From positions 62,001-126,000 of the forward strand of contig JACPPF010000018.1 in the NCBI GenBank assembly GCA_016191165.1: a stretch of DNA of 64,000 nucleotides. The letters are read 5' to 3'. Source of the DNA: Planctomycetota bacterium (GTDB taxonomy: Bacteria > Planctomycetota > Planctomycetia > Gemmatales > Gemmataceae). The notes below the pieces were generated by a model. It did no database searches. It was not told the origin of the DNA and was given only the letters and a program-made list of their open reading frames with translations. The translations under genes and the position numbers were made by a program. Each line of letters starts with the position of its first letter. Positions within the stretch are counted from its first letter, which is position 1. Below are positions 626 through 44,625 of this stretch, one piece after another.

Positions 626-2048
626 CCATATTCATTTAGCCGCGGGGCTTGCCCCGCGCGCCAATCCGGACGCGACAACGTGGGACGTGATCGTCGTCGG
701 CGCCGGCGCCGCGGGCCTGATGGCGGCGATTCACGCAGCCGAGCGCGGGCGGCGCGTGCTCATTCTGGAAAAAAATCGCAAGCCCGGCGTCAAAATCCTC
801 ATGTCCGGCGGCACACGCTGCAACATCACCCACGCCACCGACAACCGCGGCATCGTTGCCGCCTACGGGCAGCCTGGGAAGTTCCTTCACTCCGCCCTGG
901 CGGCCTTCACCGTGCAAGACACGATCGACTTCTTTGAATCCGAGGGGGTCGCGACCAAGGTCGAGGAGACGGGCAAGGTTTTTCCCGTGAGCAACAAGGC
1001 GCTCGATGTGCTCGACGCTCTCCTGGCGAGGCTCAATCGCAGCGGTGCGGTGTTGGCGGTTGGGGAAGGCGTGCTTGAGTTGGGCTTCGCAGATGAACGC
1101 CATGTGATTCGGACCACTTTGCGGGCGCTAAACGCGGGCCGGATTATTCTCACTACCGGCGGGCAATCCTATCCCGGGTCGGGCACGACTGGCGATGGTT
1201 ACCGCTTCGCGCAACAGCTCGGCCATCGCATCGTCCCGCCACGCCCCGCGCTCGTGCCCTTGACGACCAGCCTGCCCTGGGTCGCCGAGCTACGCGGCAT
1301 CACCCTGCCCGATGTTGCCGTGCGTATTCTCGACGGAGAGCGCGCCCTGATCCAGCGCCGCGGTTCACTGCTGTTCGCCCACTTCGGGCTGTCCGGCCCC
1401 GTCATCCTCGACGTGAGCCGGGTTGTCAGCGAGCATTTTCAACCCGACGTAGGTCAGGCTTTCCAGCCTGACACGGACGTGAGTCGGGGCCTCAGTGAGC
1501 ATTTTCACCCCGACGTAGGTCAGGCTTTCCAGCCTGACAGGCCGGTCCCCCCCGTCAGGCTGGAAAGCCTGACCTACCCGAGCCGTGAGGGGCATGCAAC
1601 GCTTGCCCTTGACCTCGACCTCGCGCCGCAAATGTCGGACGTGGATATGAATGAATGGTTGCGCCACGAATCCCAGGCATCCGGCAAAAAGCAGCTGGCC
1701 ATCGTCCTGACCCAGCACGCGCCGCGCCGGCTGGCGGACATCGTACTGGGCGAGGCCGGCTTGCCGATCGACCGCAAGGCCGCCGCGTTGACGAAGGAGG
1801 ATCGGCAGCGCATCGTTCATGCCATGAAGCATCTGCGAATCCCCATCACGGGCACGCTTGGCTTCAAGAAAGCCGAGGTCACCGCCGGCGGTGTCGCGCT
1901 TGACGAAGTCGATTCACGAACGATGGAGAGTAAGCTCGTGCCAGGCCTCTTTCTAGCGGGCGAGATTCTCGACCTCGATGGCCCGATCGGCGGCTACAAC
2001 TTTCAGGCCGCGTGGAGCACCGGCTGGCTCGCGGGGGGAGCGGTGTGA
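615..2048 (+). CDS. HI0933/YhiN-type FAD-dependent flavoprotein
   Basis: A 477-aa NAD(P)/FAD-dependent oxidoreductase of the HI0933 (BaiN/YhiN, 'aminoacetone oxidase') family. Near the N-terminus the dinucleotide-binding motif VVGAGAAGLMAA is followed by EKNRKPGVKILMSGGTRCN, the family signature. The C-terminus has GLFLAGEILDLDGPIGGYN, the second FAD contact region. The physiological substrate is unknown. I chose ATG 615 because it overlaps the preceding stop and puts the FAD motif close to the N-terminus; an upstream in-frame ATG at 549 lies deep in the previous gene. Residues about 266-321 are an insertion made of dispersed repeat DNA, which explains why the protein is longer than the roughly 400 aa usual for the family. 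Confidence 0.88.
   Translation: MPNNHIHLAAGLAPRANPDATTWDVIVVGAGAAGLMAAIHAAERGRRVLILEKNRKPGVKILMSGGTRCNITHATDNRGIVAAYGQPGKFLHSALAAFTVQDTIDFFESEGVATKVEETGKVFPVSNKALDVLDALLARLNRSGAVLAVGEGVLELGFADERHVIRTTLRALNAGRIILTTGGQSYPGSGTTGDGYRFAQQLGHRIVPPRPALVPLTTSLPWVAELRGITLPDVAVRILDGERALIQRRGSLLFAHFGLSGPVILDVSRVVSEHFQPDVGQAFQPDTDVSRGLSEHFHPDVGQAFQPDRPVPPVRLESLTYPSREGHATLALDLDLAPQMSDVDMNEWLRHESQASGKKQLAIVLTQHAPRRLADIVLGEAGLPIDRKAAALTKEDRQRIVHAMKHLRIPITGTLGFKKAEVTAGGVALDEVDSRTMESKLVPGLFLAGEILDLDGPIGGYNFQAAWSTGWLAGGAV
1410..1577 (+). repeat. Palindromic repeat array translated inside the flavoprotein gene
   Basis: Two tandem 66-bp units (1410-1475 and 1476-1541) each encode a 22-residue repeat ending VGQAFQPD(T/R). 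Each contains the word gtaggtcaggctttccagcc (from 1449 and from 1515). An inverted copy at 1554-1577 encodes PVRLESLTY. The copies at 1515-1538 and 1554-1577 form a 24-bp perfect stem with a 15-base loop. The same word occurs between genes at 30238. The whole array keeps the reading frame. Confidence 0.9.
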
Positions 2049-15273: not shown

Positions 15274-15455
15274 GAGGGCGCCCTCCGGGAGACTCTTCCA
15301 GGGGTCATTGTGCCATGATCTGGACGGAAACGCAACGTGGTTGTGGGAATTGGGAGGGCTTGGCCGATCCCGGGGGTTCGCTTCGCTCACCCTCGGGCCT
15401 CAAGAATCACATGAAACCACTCACCATTTGCCGCTCATTCCACTACACTACCACC

Positions 15456-15541
15456 AATCGCTAGGGGTGCCCGCGCGCTGCCGCGGGCTGAGAGCAGACC
15501 CTGGGACCTGATCCGGATCATGCCGGCGTGGGAAAGCGATG
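15456..15541 (+). promoter_or_regulatory. TPP (THI-box) riboswitch
   Basis: The conserved TPP aptamer core is present in order: ctaggggtgcc, ggctgagag, accctgggacctgatccgg, atcatgccggcgtgggaaagcgat. P1 can pair atcgct (15457-15462) with agcgat (15535-15540). It lies 87 bases before a small membrane-protein gene and about 630 bases before thiC. Binding of thiamine pyrophosphate is expected to lower expression of the downstream operon. Confidence 0.95.
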
Positions 15542-15593
15542 CCACTCTTGAGACCGCGCATCGTTTCCTCCCTCTCTCATGTTGACCTCAACG

Positions 15594-29081: not shown

Positions 29082-30182
29082 ATGTCCGATGACGTGCAAC
29101 TGGACTACCTTCCGCGCTTGCCGACCCGGCGCGACTGGCGCATCGGCTGCATCGGCGCGGGCTTCATCATGCGCGATTGCCATCTCGTCGCCTATCGGCA
29201 AGCGGGTTTCAATCCCGTCGCGATCACCTCGCGCAACCTCGAAAACGCCCGCGCGGTCGCCAGGCAGCATGCAATCCCGGCGGTCCATGCGTCGATTGAC
29301 GAGTTGCTCACGGACCAGTCGATCGAGATCCTCGATGTCGCCGTGCCGCCCGATTTGCAGCCGGACGTTTTGCGCAAGGCCGCCGAGCATGGCGATCATT
29401 TGCGTGGCATCCTGGCGCAGAAGCCGCTGGCGATGTCGGTTCGCGATGCCAGGGACGTGGTCGAGCGCTGCCAGGCGGCAGGCATCGCCCTGGCCGTCAA
29501 TCAGAACATGCGCTATGACCAATCGGTCCGCGCCATGAAGGACCTTCTCAAGCGTGGCTGGCTCGGCGACCCGGTGCTGGCCACGATCGACATGCGCGCC
29601 ATCCCGCACTGGATGCCCTGGAGCGAACATCTGCATTCGCTGTCCACCTTCGTGATGAGCATCCACCATCTCGACACATTCCGCTACTGGCTCGGCACGC
29701 CCGAGCGCGTGCTCGCCAGCACGCGCCCCGATCCGCGCACGAAGTTCCCTCACACCGATGGCATCAACCTCTACATCCTCGAATACGATTCCGGCACTCG
29801 CGCCATGAGCTGCGACGACGTCTGGACCGGCCCGGCCCGCGAAGGCGCCGGCAGCGACATCGCCATTCGTTGGCGCGTCGAGGGCACCGACGGCCTGGCC
29901 CGCGGCACGATCGGCTGGCCCAGCTACCCCGCCCGGACGCCAAGCACGCTCGATTTCAGCACCACGCAACAGGCCGGATCTTGGTTGTCGCCCCGCTGGT
30001 CGGAAGTCTGGTTTCCCGACGCCTTCGTCGGCACGATGGCGCAGCTACTTTGCGCGGTGGAGGACGGCGCGGAGCCGGAAATCGGCGGCCGCGACAACCT
30101 CGAAACAATCGCGCTTTGCGAGGCGGTTTACGCGGCGGCGCAGGAACATCGGGTGACGACGGTGGCCGAGTTTCTCGTTTAG
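29082..30182 (+). CDS. Gfo/Idh/MocA-family oxidoreductase
   Basis: A 366-aa NAD(P)-dependent sugar/cyclitol dehydrogenase-type protein. The Rossmann motif IGCIGAGFIMRDCH lies near residue 20. The family lysine motif appears as AQKPLAMSVRDA (Q replaces the usual E of EKP). Next come AVNQNMRYDQSVRAMK and SIHHLDTFRYWLG, which holds the conserved histidine. The substrate is unknown. A gagg site precedes ATG 29082. Its downstream intergenic space holds a MITE-like element. Confidence 0.88.
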   Translation: MSDDVQLDYLPRLPTRRDWRIGCIGAGFIMRDCHLVAYRQAGFNPVAITSRNLENARAVARQHAIPAVHASIDELLTDQSIEILDVAVPPDLQPDVLRKAAEHGDHLRGILAQKPLAMSVRDARDVVERCQAAGIALAVNQNMRYDQSVRAMKDLLKRGWLGDPVLATIDMRAIPHWMPWSEHLHSLSTFVMSIHHLDTFRYWLGTPERVLASTRPDPRTKFPHTDGINLYILEYDSGTRAMSCDDVWTGPAREGAGSDIAIRWRVEGTDGLARGTIGWPSYPARTPSTLDFSTTQQAGSWLSPRWSEVWFPDAFVGTMAQLLCAVEDGAEPEIGGRDNLETIALCEAVYAAAQEHRVTTVAEFLV

Positions 30183-30218
30183 CGCTCGCCTGGCGCCAGG
30201 CGGACTGGGCCAAGTTTC

Positions 30219-30318
30219 GGTGGTGGTACCGTTTGCCGTAGGTCAGGCTTTCCAGCCTGACATTTCGCGGCTGCTGTCAGGCAAGAATGCCTGACCTACC
30301 TCAGACGGTACCACTACC
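30219..30318. mobile_element. MITE-like element with 8-bp target duplication (copy 1)
   Basis: A 100-bp non-coding element. It starts ggtggtggtaccgt and ends acggtaccactacc, so the terminal inverted repeats match at 13 of 14 positions. It is flanked by caagtttc at 30211-30218 and again at 30319-30326, an exact 8-bp direct repeat. The interior carries the palindrome gtaggtcagg...cctgacctac (30238-30299), the same word as in the flavoprotein gene. It has no coding capacity, so movement would depend on a transposase elsewhere. Confidence 0.85.
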
Positions 30319-30431
30319 CAAGTTTCCCACTGCTCGCCGGATGCCGGGTTTGCATAATATCGCTATCCGCCACGGGGCGCCGCCGCGCGGGCGCTAGACG
30401 AATACATCAAACCACCACTTGGACCCATCCC

Positions 30432-31313
30432 ATGAAAATCGAAGGCATTATCCCTCCCGTCGCCACGCCGATGAAAGACAATGAGGATCTCGACCTGCCC
30501 CGCCTCAAGTGGTTTCTCGACCACCTCATCACCAGCGGCGTGCATGGCATATTCGTCCTTGGCACCAACAGCGAATTCTATGCGCTCGACGAACGCGAAA
30601 AGCAAGAAGTCATCGCCACGGCCGTGGAACATGTGCGGGGCCGCGTTCCCGTGTATGCCGGCACCGGCGCCGAGACGACCCGCGAAGCCGTGCGCTTGAC
30701 CAAAATGGCCGAGAAGGAAGGCGCTGACGGCGTCTCCGTGATCACGCCCTACTTCGTCCTGCCCAATCAGCAGGAGATTTTCGATCACTATCGCCGCATC
30801 GCCGAGGCGACGAAATTGCCCGTCGTGCTGTACAACAACCCGGCCACGTGCGGCGGCGTCAAGATTGACGTGGACACCGTTGCCCGTCTGGCCGCGATTC
30901 CGAACATCCTTGGGGTGAAGGATTCCTCGGGCGATTTGCAAAACACCATCGAGTACCTGCGCGTGGTTCCGGATCGCTTCAGCGTGATGATGGGACGCGA
31001 CACGCTGATCTTTTCCGCGCTGGTCTACGGCGCGCGCGGCGCTGTACCGGCGACGGGCAACATCGCGCCCAAACTGCTCGTCGAAATCTACGAGAAATTC
31101 GTCCGCGGCGATCAGGCAGGTTCGCAGGCCGCCCAGCGCAAACTGCACCCCGTGCGCATGGCGCTGACCCTGGGCACCGCGCCCGGGGGGGTCAAGGCGG
31201 CGTTGCAGGTGCTGGGCCTGTCCATCGGCCCCAGCCGGGCGCCCGTCGCGCAGCTGCCACCGGACAAGTTGGTCAAGATGAAGGCCGCCCTGCAAGCAGC
31301 CGGGCTGCTCTGA
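30432..31313 (+). CDS. Dihydrodipicolinate synthase (DapA/NAL) family protein
   Basis: A 293-aa TIM-barrel class-I lyase/aldolase. IEGIIPPVATPMKDNEDLDL begins the fold. The phosphate/pyruvate-binding loop reads GTNSEF instead of the DapA GTTGE. LPVVLYNNPATCG holds the catalytic tyrosine, and NILGVKDSSGD holds the Schiff-base lysine. The altered loop suggests a 2-keto acid other than the DapA substrates, for example a sugar-acid-derived aldol. It follows an oxidoreductase, which fits a catabolic pair, but the substrate is not known. There is no clear ribosome binding site before ATG 30432. Confidence 0.88.
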   Translation: MKIEGIIPPVATPMKDNEDLDLPRLKWFLDHLITSGVHGIFVLGTNSEFYALDEREKQEVIATAVEHVRGRVPVYAGTGAETTREAVRLTKMAEKEGADGVSVITPYFVLPNQQEIFDHYRRIAEATKLPVVLYNNPATCGGVKIDVDTVARLAAIPNILGVKDSSGDLQNTIEYLRVVPDRFSVMMGRDTLIFSALVYGARGAVPATGNIAPKLLVEIYEKFVRGDQAGSQAAQRKLHPVRMALTLGTAPGGVKAALQVLGLSIGPSRAPVAQLPPDKLVKMKAALQAAGLL

Positions 31314-31506: not shown

Positions 31507-31695
31507 TCAGGACGAAGCGCTGCCGACCGCGGTGCCCACGGTGCCGAACGTGCTGTTGGCGTTCTGCCCGAGGGTCGTGATCGCGGCGAGGCAAACCACG
31601 ATGATCAACGCCAGCATCACGGCGTACTCGACCGCGGTGGGGCCATCTTCCTTCTGGAGGAAATTCACGGCGGCTTTCTGAAGACGTGCGAACAT
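31507..31695 (-). CDS. Flp-family type IVb pilin
   Basis: A 62-aa pilin. MFARLQKAAVNFLQKEDGP is the leader with the prepilin peptidase site, followed by TAVEYAVMLALIIVVCLAAI, the conserved hydrophobic helix with the invariant Glu at position 5 after processing (AVEY). The tail is short, as in Flp pilins made by Tad machinery. ATG 31695 is chosen because the upstream frame to 31827 contains leader RNA. No tad genes are in the window. A c-di-GMP riboswitch lies about 160 bases upstream. Confidence 0.9.
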   Translation of the reverse strand: MFARLQKAAVNFLQKEDGPTAVEYAVMLALIIVVCLAAITTLGQNANSTFGTVGTAVGSASS

Positions 31696-31854
31696 GGGAA
31701 ACCCTTTCTGGTCCAGAAAAAGTAAGTGCGACCGGGACCCTCTGGAAGGTGACCCGCGAAGGCTCCGCGACACCAGCGCGGAGCAAACTTCGGACCTCCA
31801 CGCATCGTCGGGCAAGAAGACGCTCACTCACGTGAACGCTGACCGTGGGACCAC

Positions 31855-31940
31855 TCCGTTCGGTAGCCTGGCAGTCCGCCTTTGATGAAGCGGATCCATG
31901 GCTTTGCGTCCCACCCTCACGGATGGTTTGCCGTTGTCGT
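31855..31940 (-). promoter_or_regulatory. Cyclic di-GMP-I (GEMM) riboswitch
   Basis: Read on the reverse strand, the segment contains the GEMM-I core: ggcaaaccatccgtgagggt, then gggacgcaaagcc, and at the 3' side gactgccaggctaccg. These match the conserved GGCAAACC, GGGACGCAAAGCC and GCUACCG blocks of the aptamer, with a GNRA-like gtga loop between the first two. It precedes the flp pilin in the same direction, so pilin expression should respond to c-di-GMP. An 8-bp stem (gctccgcg/cgcggagc, 31762-31784) lies between switch and gene. Confidence 0.9.
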
Positions 31941-32170
31941 GGATTCACGGTCACGGACGTTGCGCGGACACCCTTGAAAAAAGACCCAAGAAAAACGCGG
32001 GCGAACGATTCCTTTCGATGGAAGGCCCGGGCCCGAACACCCGTTCGCCGTGGCCTTCACTTCACGACAAACCTAGGTCGGATTTTAACGTCTGTCAAAT
32101 TGAAAGGGATTATTCCTGATATTCCGGCCGCACGACGAGGCGGTGCTCGCCTTGAGTCATAAAAATGAGT

Positions 32171-33976: not shown

Positions 33977-34945
33977 CTACCCTCGCATGCCCATTCCCAT
34001 CATGCCCATGCCTTGCATGCCCATCATACCGCCCATGCCCATGCCTTGCATACCCATCATGCCTCCACCCATGCCCATCATGCCCATGCCTTGCATGCCC
34101 ATCATGCCGCCCATGCCCATGCCTCCCATGCCTTGCATGCCCATCATGCCGCCCATGCCCATACCGCCCATGCCTTGCATGCCCATCATGCCGCCCATGC
34201 CTTGCATGCCCATCATGCCGCCCATGCCTTGCATGCCCATCATGCCGCCACCCATGCCCATCATTTGCCCGCCCATCATGCCGCCACCCATGCCCATCAT
34301 TTGCCCGCCCATCATGCCGCCCATGCCTTGCATGCCCATCATGCCGCCACCCATGCCCATCATTTGCCCGCCCATCATGCCGCCACCCATGCCCATCATA
34401 CCCATGCCGCCCATGCCCATCCCCATCATACCGCGGCGTACCGACATGCCAGTCGGCGTGGGTCGGCGGAGGTTTAGGGTGCGATAGAGATTGGGGTTAA
34501 TGCCTGGCAGGACCCCACCGCCATTTCCAACATTTCCGCCATTTCCAACATTTCCGCCATTTCCAACATTTCCGCCATTTCCAACATTTCCGCCATTTCC
34601 AACGTTCCCGCCATTTCCAACATTTCCACCATTTCCAACGTTTCCGCCGTTCATCATGCCGCCGCCATTCATCATGCCGCCGCCATTCATCATGCCGCCG
34701 CCATTCATCATGCCGCCGCCATTCATCATGCCGCCCATGCCCTGCATGCCCATCATTTGCCCGCCCATCATGCCGCCACCCATGCCCATCATTTGCCCGC
34801 CCATCATGCCGCCACCCATGCCCATCATGCTCATTCCGCCCATGCCTTGCATGCCCATCATGCCGCCACCCATACCCATCATGCCACCGCCCATACCCAT
34901 CATGCCGCCGCCCATACCCATCATGCCGCCGCCCATACCCATCAT
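33977..34945 (-). CDS. Met/Gly-rich repeat protein, downstream part after frameshift
   Basis: A 322-aa frame made almost entirely of short repeats: MMGMGGG units, five MMNGGG units, seven NVGNGG units, and MGMQGMGG units. One short non-repeat stretch (GVLPGINPNLYRTLNLRRPT) lies in the middle. It starts with an ATG overlapping the preceding stop (ATGA), but has no signal peptide of its own. The preceding frame (34942-35175) ends in the same kind of repeat. I read both as one secreted protein of about 400 residues broken by a single-base change in a G-rich tract. Confidence 0.65.
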   Translation of the reverse strand: MMGMGGGMMGMGGGMMGMGGGMMGMGGGMMGMQGMGGMSMMGMGGGMMGGQMMGMGGGMMGGQMMGMQGMGGMMNGGGMMNGGGMMNGGGMMNGGGMMNGGNVGNGGNVGNGGNVGNGGNVGNGGNVGNGGNVGNGGNVGNGGGVLPGINPNLYRTLNLRRPTPTGMSVRRGMMGMGMGGMGMMGMGGGMMGGQMMGMGGGMMGMQGMGGMMGGQMMGMGGGMMGGQMMGMGGGMMGMQGMGGMMGMQGMGGMMGMQGMGGMGMGGMMGMQGMGGMGMGGMMGMQGMGMMGMGGGMMGMQGMGMGGMMGMQGMGMMGMGMRG

Positions 34946-44368: not shown

Positions 44369-44402
44369 ATATAAACTCCGGCGCTGGTCCGATGTTGTTT
44401 CG

Positions 44403-44503
44403 GTGGTGTCTCACTTTGCTTTGGCGCTTGGTAGACCTCACGCTCCGCGTGAGGAATTCCTCACGCGGAGCGTGAGGTCTACCATCAAACTGAGACACTA
44501 CCG
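44403..44503. mobile_element. MITE-like element with 8-bp target duplication (copy 2)
   Basis: A 101-bp element that begins ggtggtgtctcac and ends ctgagacactacc, so the inverted ends match at 11 of 13 positions. It is flanked by gttgtttc at 44395-44402 and at 44504-44511. The centre is a perfect 25-bp stem (44431-44484; ggtagacctcacgctccgcg on the left arm). The ends share GGTRGTG with the element at 30219, and both have 8-bp duplications ending in tttc. Confidence 0.88.
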
Positions 44504-44625
44504 TTGTTTCAAAACCCTTGGGCCTTGCCCAAAGTGGATGCGAAGAACGTCTCTCGTTGGCACTTCGGGCTAGGATTGAACCATTCCGTCGCTTGCGCGT
44601 CTGGCTAACTTGTCGGCATTGTAAG

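Follow-up and report, generated by a model that had tools for sequence, protein, structure and literature searches.

The window, a 64,000-nucleotide stretch of DNA from a bacterium of the Planctomycetota (family Gemmataceae), contains between two genes a 100-bp palindromic unit that is flanked by identical octamers. The question raised by this locus is whether the unit is a passive intergenic palindrome or a transposed element. A previous reading, made from the sequence alone, proposed a transposition-like signature. The unit is very probably a non-autonomous mini-transposon (MITE) of IS1 type that carries a REPIN core. It is short and multi-copy, has inverted ends and a constant 8-bp duplication, encodes no transposase, and is absent from its locus in a relative. 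Because the middle of the MITE is an abundant palindrome of a kind moved by a different enzyme, the locus is a repeat nested in a repeat, one mobile repeat inside another.

Structure of the Focal Element

The focal unit lies between two plus-strand ORFs, one upstream (29082-30182) and one downstream (30432-31313). Their translations read as a GFO/IDH-type oxidoreductase-like protein and a DapA-like protein, respectively. The reading order is ...GGC-CAAGTTTC-( GGTGGTGGTACCGTTTGCC GTAGGTCAGGCTTTCCAGCCTGAC ATTTCGCGGCTGCT GTCAGGCAAGAATGCCTGACCTAC CTCAGACGGTACCACTACC )-CAAGTTTC-CC..., where the part in parentheses is the 100-bp unit. The exact duplication on both sides that had been reported was matched base for base (Table 1). 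Inverted ends are also present, and they match over about 17 bp rather than over only the 14 bp given in the sequence-only reading. Their consensus is GGTRGTG-NNN-CAGTTTG. Perfect matches to the end motif GGTRGTGGTACCGT are found at only two sites in the window, the two ends of the focal unit. The core word GTAGGTCAGGCTTTCCAGCCTGAC has an inverted partner with 3 mismatches, so that the core is a pair of inverted REPs, each with GTAG at its foot, arranged as in a REPIN. The whole unit folds as a single end-to-end hairpin (-71 kcal/mol, z -11.8).

Table 1. Positions of the two MITEs, their parts, and the end-less REP-A copies in the window.
Feature	Positions	Strand	Remarks
Left 8-bp target-site duplication of the focal unit	30211..30218	.	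CAAGTTTC
Sub-family A MITE (focal unit)	30219..30318	+	100 bp; no coding capacity of note
Left terminal inverted repeat	30219..30235	+	GGTGGTGGTACCGTTTG
Right terminal inverted repeat	30302..30318	-	GGTAGTGGTACCGTCTG (reverse-complemented)
REPIN-A core	30238..30299	.	62 bp; inverted GTAG-tagged REPs 30238-30261 (+) and 30276-30299 (-)
Right 8-bp target-site duplication of the focal unit	30319..30326	.	CAAGTTTC
Three REP-A copies in flavoprotein-like ORF	1449..1577	.	exact GTAGGTCAGGCTTTCCAGCCTGAC matches; no MITE ends
Left 8-bp target-site duplication of the second MITE	44394..44401	.	GTTGTTTC
Sub-family B MITE	44402..44502	+	101 bp; ends GGTGGTGTCTCACTTTG / GGTAGTGTCTCAGTTTG
REPIN-B core	44431..44482	.	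52 bp; GTAGACCTCACGCTCCGCGTGAGG-aatt-inverse
Right 8-bp target-site duplication of the second MITE	44503..44510	.	GTTGTTTC

A second MITE in the window belongs to sub-family B. It is bounded by a perfect duplication and folds at -77.3 kcal/mol (z -15.4). Its REPIN core is unlike that of the focal unit.

Several other features of the window were recorded. The end of the oxidoreductase ORF contains a palindromic repeat, GTTTAGCGC..CTGGCGCCAG.., at 30175-30202, and this 28-bp stretch has identical matches elsewhere in sister genomes. A small pilin-like ORF at 31507-31827 (-) has a c-di-GMP-I-GGC riboswitch aptamer (31858-31941, -) immediately upstream, and a TPP riboswitch aptamer is located at 15453-15551 (+). 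The 322-aa ORF at 33977-34945 (-) is made up almost entirely of MMGMGG/GNGGNV repeats, and similar repeats adjoin it.

Copies in the Host Genome

The host assembly that was searched comprises 7.23 Mb in 183 contigs, is 95% complete, and is GC-rich. With the focal unit as query, about 15 full-length or near-full-length relatives with unrelated flanks were found. A relaxed end pattern, GGTRGTGNNNCARTTTGC, revealed sub-family B, whose members end in GGTGGTGTCTCACTTTG / GGTAGTGTCTCAGTTTG and are either 101-103 or 78 bp long. Together, the two sub-families number at least 43 copies in the host genome, and further GGTRGTG-ended copies of about 100 bp with 8-bp duplications, which the sequence-only reading had advised looking for, are plentiful.

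Duplication statistics were taken on the 43 copies that had been identified through their ends, 13 belonging to sub-family A and 30 to sub-family B. Identical flanking 8-mers are observed in 26/43 copies, and octamers with at most one mismatch in 36/43. When left and right flanks of different copies were paired as a swapped-flank control, 0/1,806 pairings were exact and 6/1,806 had at most one mismatch; the 8-bp duplication is therefore not a product of chance. Extended to 9 bp, flank identity is found in 0/43 host copies. The duplicated octamers show a preference for about GAANNTTC, and the ends are conserved among the copies whereas the flanks are not. A constant 8-bp duplication across copies is a signature of transposition with a fixed stagger of 8, and with dozens of copies of this kind the signature suggested for the single focal unit holds. 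The host copies differ by several per cent, so the activity that spread them may be past.

Sister-Species Loci Lacking the Elements

In the sister species G006 (contig C143), both neighbor genes of the focal unit are adjacent, each with 82% identity, and the element is absent. The gap between the aligned parts of the genes is 108 bp in this species and 224 bp at the focal locus. The difference of 116 bp is near the 108 bp expected of one insertion (100 + 8). Neighbors of the sub-family B copy are found on contig C90 of G006, where the alignment passes through the insertion point without the unit. Because the spacers have diverged, these are loci that lack the element and not base-perfect empty sites, and for the same reason the pre-insertion target is unreadable base for base. 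The sequence-only reading had advised looking for an element-free locus with one caagtttc copy; the element-free locus exists on C143, where a lone copy of the target cannot be read cleanly. Matches to the focal neighbor genes lie on different contigs in G001, G002, and G003, and no strong match to one or both genes was found in G004 or G005.

REP and REPIN Cores

The core palindrome is an independent REP/REPIN and not merely the middle of a MITE. The 62-bp REPIN-A unit also occurs without MITE ends in the host and in sister genomes. In the host, REP-A units without ends are also found as tandem arrays of 68-77 bp. Such arrays were noted at loci L010, L014, L023, and L028; those in L010 and L014 are inside MITE ends or at their edge, and those in L010, L014, and L028 are at contig ends of the assembly.

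REPIN-B (52 bp) is unrelated to REPIN-A. It is abundant without MITE ends in four sister genomes, where the matches stop at the borders of the core.

The core word had also been reported inside a flavoprotein-like gene, and this was borne out. Three exact copies of GTAGGTCAGGCTTTCCAGCCTGAC are present, against a chance expectation of 0, and the reading frame of the 499-aa ORF (549-2048) is open across all three. The copies insert segments such as VGQAFQPD into the protein. In this they resemble the in-frame palindromic elements of Rickettsia.

A gene of the Y1 type (RAYT-like; L055:1189-1857) on host contig C14 has about a dozen REP-A copies around it. Its product matches the Y1_Tnp Pfam model above cut-off, and its best NCBIfam model is RAYT, with 65.6 bits against a cut-off of 80. 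This locus is a candidate source of the REP-A family. Several of the surrounding REP-A copies form a 30-bp tandem series.

Other elements with the same ends and 8-bp duplications contain other hairpins, or DNA that forms no hairpin, e.g., a 201-bp unit (L161). A nearly core-less 47-bp unit (L243) has the same ends, and its duplication has one mismatch. Since the same ends bound various cores or none, they form a single module, and the palindromes are contents that can be exchanged for one another. A core C (TGTCGCCTTTCGC...) was considered as a third captured REP and rejected; most of its copies in G004 and G006 are within ends that are sometimes decayed, and its independence is unsupported. 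A core D was seen in one element only.

IS1-Type Ends and the Presumed Mobilizing Enzyme

IS1 elements in ISfinder have GGnnnTG-type ends and 8-9-bp duplications. Searches of the host assembly gave no IS1-family gene (PF03400), but such genes occur in other genera of the family. The IS1 elements of those genera are 786-791 bp long, start with GGTAGTGG, and have exact 8-bp duplications. GGTRGTG with 8 bp is thus common to the MITEs, the long elements described below, and bona fide IS1. The end pattern GGTRGTGNCTCARTTTG occurs in 17/95 genomes of the family, and the reversed control pattern gave 0 matches.

The exact end GGTAGTGTCTCAGTTTG is found in many phyla, including Bacteroidota, Acidobacteria, Proteobacteria, and Nitrospirae. 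Paired ends of this type bound elements of 0.9-7.3 kb, which occur in many phyla and in the family of the host as well. Among the 18 long elements examined, the 8-bp duplication is exact in 17 and has a single mismatch in 1. The same IS1-like DDE transposase or a remnant of it is present in 16 of them, and a small KGGKAR-type protein or a similar fragment in 17. These long elements look like a widespread transposon family. Four tested transposases (L345, L239, L253, and L358) score above the gathering score of PF03400. The best NCBIfam model for the long-element transposases is IS1, at 52-93 bits and hence below the cut-off of 100. For L344 the top match is IS701 because its frame also runs into an IS701-type transposase.

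A set of these elements (L231, L239, L242, L253, L259, L263, L265, L279, L281, L293, L296, L344, L345, and L346) measures 2.4-7.3 kb, with exact 8-bp duplications. The transposase of L279 is a remnant, and the rest have an IS1-like transposase. The KGGKAR-type protein is conserved in the set, with a weak match only in L293. The cargo is variable, e.g., an AAA ATPase in L345 and an HTH protein in L344.

The focal unit is best called a non-autonomous IS1-type MITE because nearly all same-ended long elements have this transposase or its remnant. The ends of sub-family B are exactly those of an autonomous transposon, and their IS1-type attribution is well supported. In sub-family A an internal triplet differs (GTA in place of TCT). 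No long element with the GTA triplet was found, the long elements having the TCT variant. The exact autonomous partner of sub-family A is one that we can only infer, because GTA replaces TCT after GGTRGTG and such a long element was not found. An autonomous element with the same ends had also been named as a thing to look for; IS1-like elements ending in GGTAGTGTCTCAGTTTG do occur, both across many phyla and within the host's own family, but the searches found none in the host assembly and none with GTA.

When a long-element transposase was used as query across the genus, none was found in the host. An intact 333-aa IS1-type gene is present in G006 (contig C104), with no matching end pair within the stretch read. 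Weak transposase matches in G003 and G001 were discarded, as they have no MITE-type ends. Two GGTTGTGGTACGGTT sites in the host (C122:44953 and C153:9269) were considered as ends of an autonomous element and rejected; their sequences are otherwise unlike, and neither has a partner end. The sole other perfect GGTRGTGGTAC site outside the host MITEs (C34:4368) is in coding-like DNA with no MITE sequence around it.

Alternative Explanations

The existence of REP-A units without ends, including those in the flavoprotein-like ORF, would suit a passive intergenic palindrome, a REP pair with coincidental 8-bp repeats at its flanks. Coincidence is refuted by the swapped-flank control (26/43 exact against 0/1,806) and by conserved ends beside unconserved flanks, and the probability left to this explanation is negligible. 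A REPIN moved by its RAYT only, with GGTRGTG as an extension of the REP and not a transposon end, would account for the GTAG-tagged core and for the Y1/RAYT gene flanked by the same REPs. Yet these ends are also found around non-REP cores, long cargo elements, and the core-less 47-bp unit, and around no fewer than two REPINs that are unrelated to each other. RAYT/IS200-type transposition is not known to give a target duplication, unlike the event recorded at the focal unit, and REPINs are not known to have inverted ends outside GTAG or target-site duplications. We regard movement by RAYT only as very improbable. The exact 8-bp duplications and the GGTRGTG ends set the whole element apart from the REPINs, and the term applies to its core alone.

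Two further explanations accept a MITE. It could belong to another DDE family with 8-bp duplications, e.g., IS1595 or IS256, the match to IS1 being merely distant; the scores against NCBIfam IS1 do not reach the cut-off, and IS1595 turns up as a weak further match. However, IS1 is the best model for every tested transposase whose frame is not fused to another, IS1595 scores far lower, and GGTAGTG with 8-bp duplications is common to bona fide IS1 elements of the same family, which makes another DDE family distinctly unlikely. It is also unlikely that the unit, a MITE by origin, owes its present retention between the two genes chiefly to a role as a transcription terminator or as a hairpin at mRNA ends. 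The genes are on the same strand and the fold is strong, but G006 has no hairpin at this locus despite the presence of both genes, and the hairpin is a consequence of the inverted repeats. It would affect transcripts running through it.

Proposed Origin and Significance

An IS1-type MITE with a REPIN core could arise as follows. An IS1-like DDE transposase, supplied in trans by an element with ends of the same type elsewhere, would bind the ends of the MITE. It would join them to a cut staggered by 8 bp in a preferred target of about GAANNTTC, and repair would yield the duplication. A REPIN, normally moved by RAYT, would enter between two minimal ends, and the composite would then be multiplied by the IS1-type transposase. 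Sub-family B would have followed the same course with an unrelated REPIN. As to the order of nesting, either a minimal unit would have received the REPIN by transposition, or the ends would have closed in around the REPIN. The former route has a possible substrate, since a core-less 47-bp unit exists.

A broader proposal, for and against which we are evenly balanced, is that IS1-like cargo transposons with GGTAGTGTCTCAGTTTG ends, 8-bp duplications, and the conserved small KGG protein make up a widespread branch that has been little described. This branch would repeatedly spawn mini-elements with REP-type palindromes of the host, DDE and HUH/RAYT systems would both spread the same DNA, and a hairpin core would be favored rather than accidental.

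MITEs and REPINs are known kinds of repeats, and what is unusual here is to find them nested repeatedly between the same ends. No description of REPIN-in-MITE nesting, with exchangeable REPINs between IS1-type ends and the RAYT of the REP in the same genome, was found in the literature searched, which was mainly open-access. Intergenic palindromes that look like a single family can spread by two routes, and a census of REPs or MITEs that is blind to the nesting would misread both. For such palindromes, the ends, the target length, and a candidate transposase are now supplied. The mobilizing enzyme is testable because the ends are common to many phyla, and the nested cases can serve to probe REPIN dispersal. 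The long IS1-like cargo elements are a candidate transposon family that merits its own description.

Comparison with Known Systems

The focal unit is like the IS1 family (PF03400) in its GGTRGTG ends, its exact 8-bp duplications, and the IS1-like transposase of long elements with ends of the same type. It differs in having no transposase. Its long relatives also differ. They measure 0.9-7.3 kb, carry cargo together with a conserved small KGG protein, and do not reach the cut-off of the NCBIfam IS1 model.

REPINs or BIMEs with RAYT (PMC3116915, PMC3733652, PMC2817692) are multi-copy, have two inverted GTAG-tagged palindromes, as does the focal core, and have REPs flanking the RAYT gene. The focal unit departs from them in its inverted ends outside GTAG and its target-site duplication.

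QMITE2 of Coxiella burnetii is a MITE reported with a GTAG repetitive extragenic palindrome (PMC10969869), and it is a precedent for a GTAG REP inside a MITE. QMITE2 belongs to another organism, its REP is described there as a target of IS1111, and the passage on it describes no series of different REP cores that share their ends.

Bacterial MITEs include NEMIS, ERIC, RUP, Chunjie, and others (PMC3733652, PMC10969869). Like them, the focal unit falls within 70-300 bp, has inverted ends, is non-coding and multi-copy, and has a target-site duplication where intact. Unlike them, it has as its core a complete and independent REPIN, and various REPINs occur under its one set of ends.
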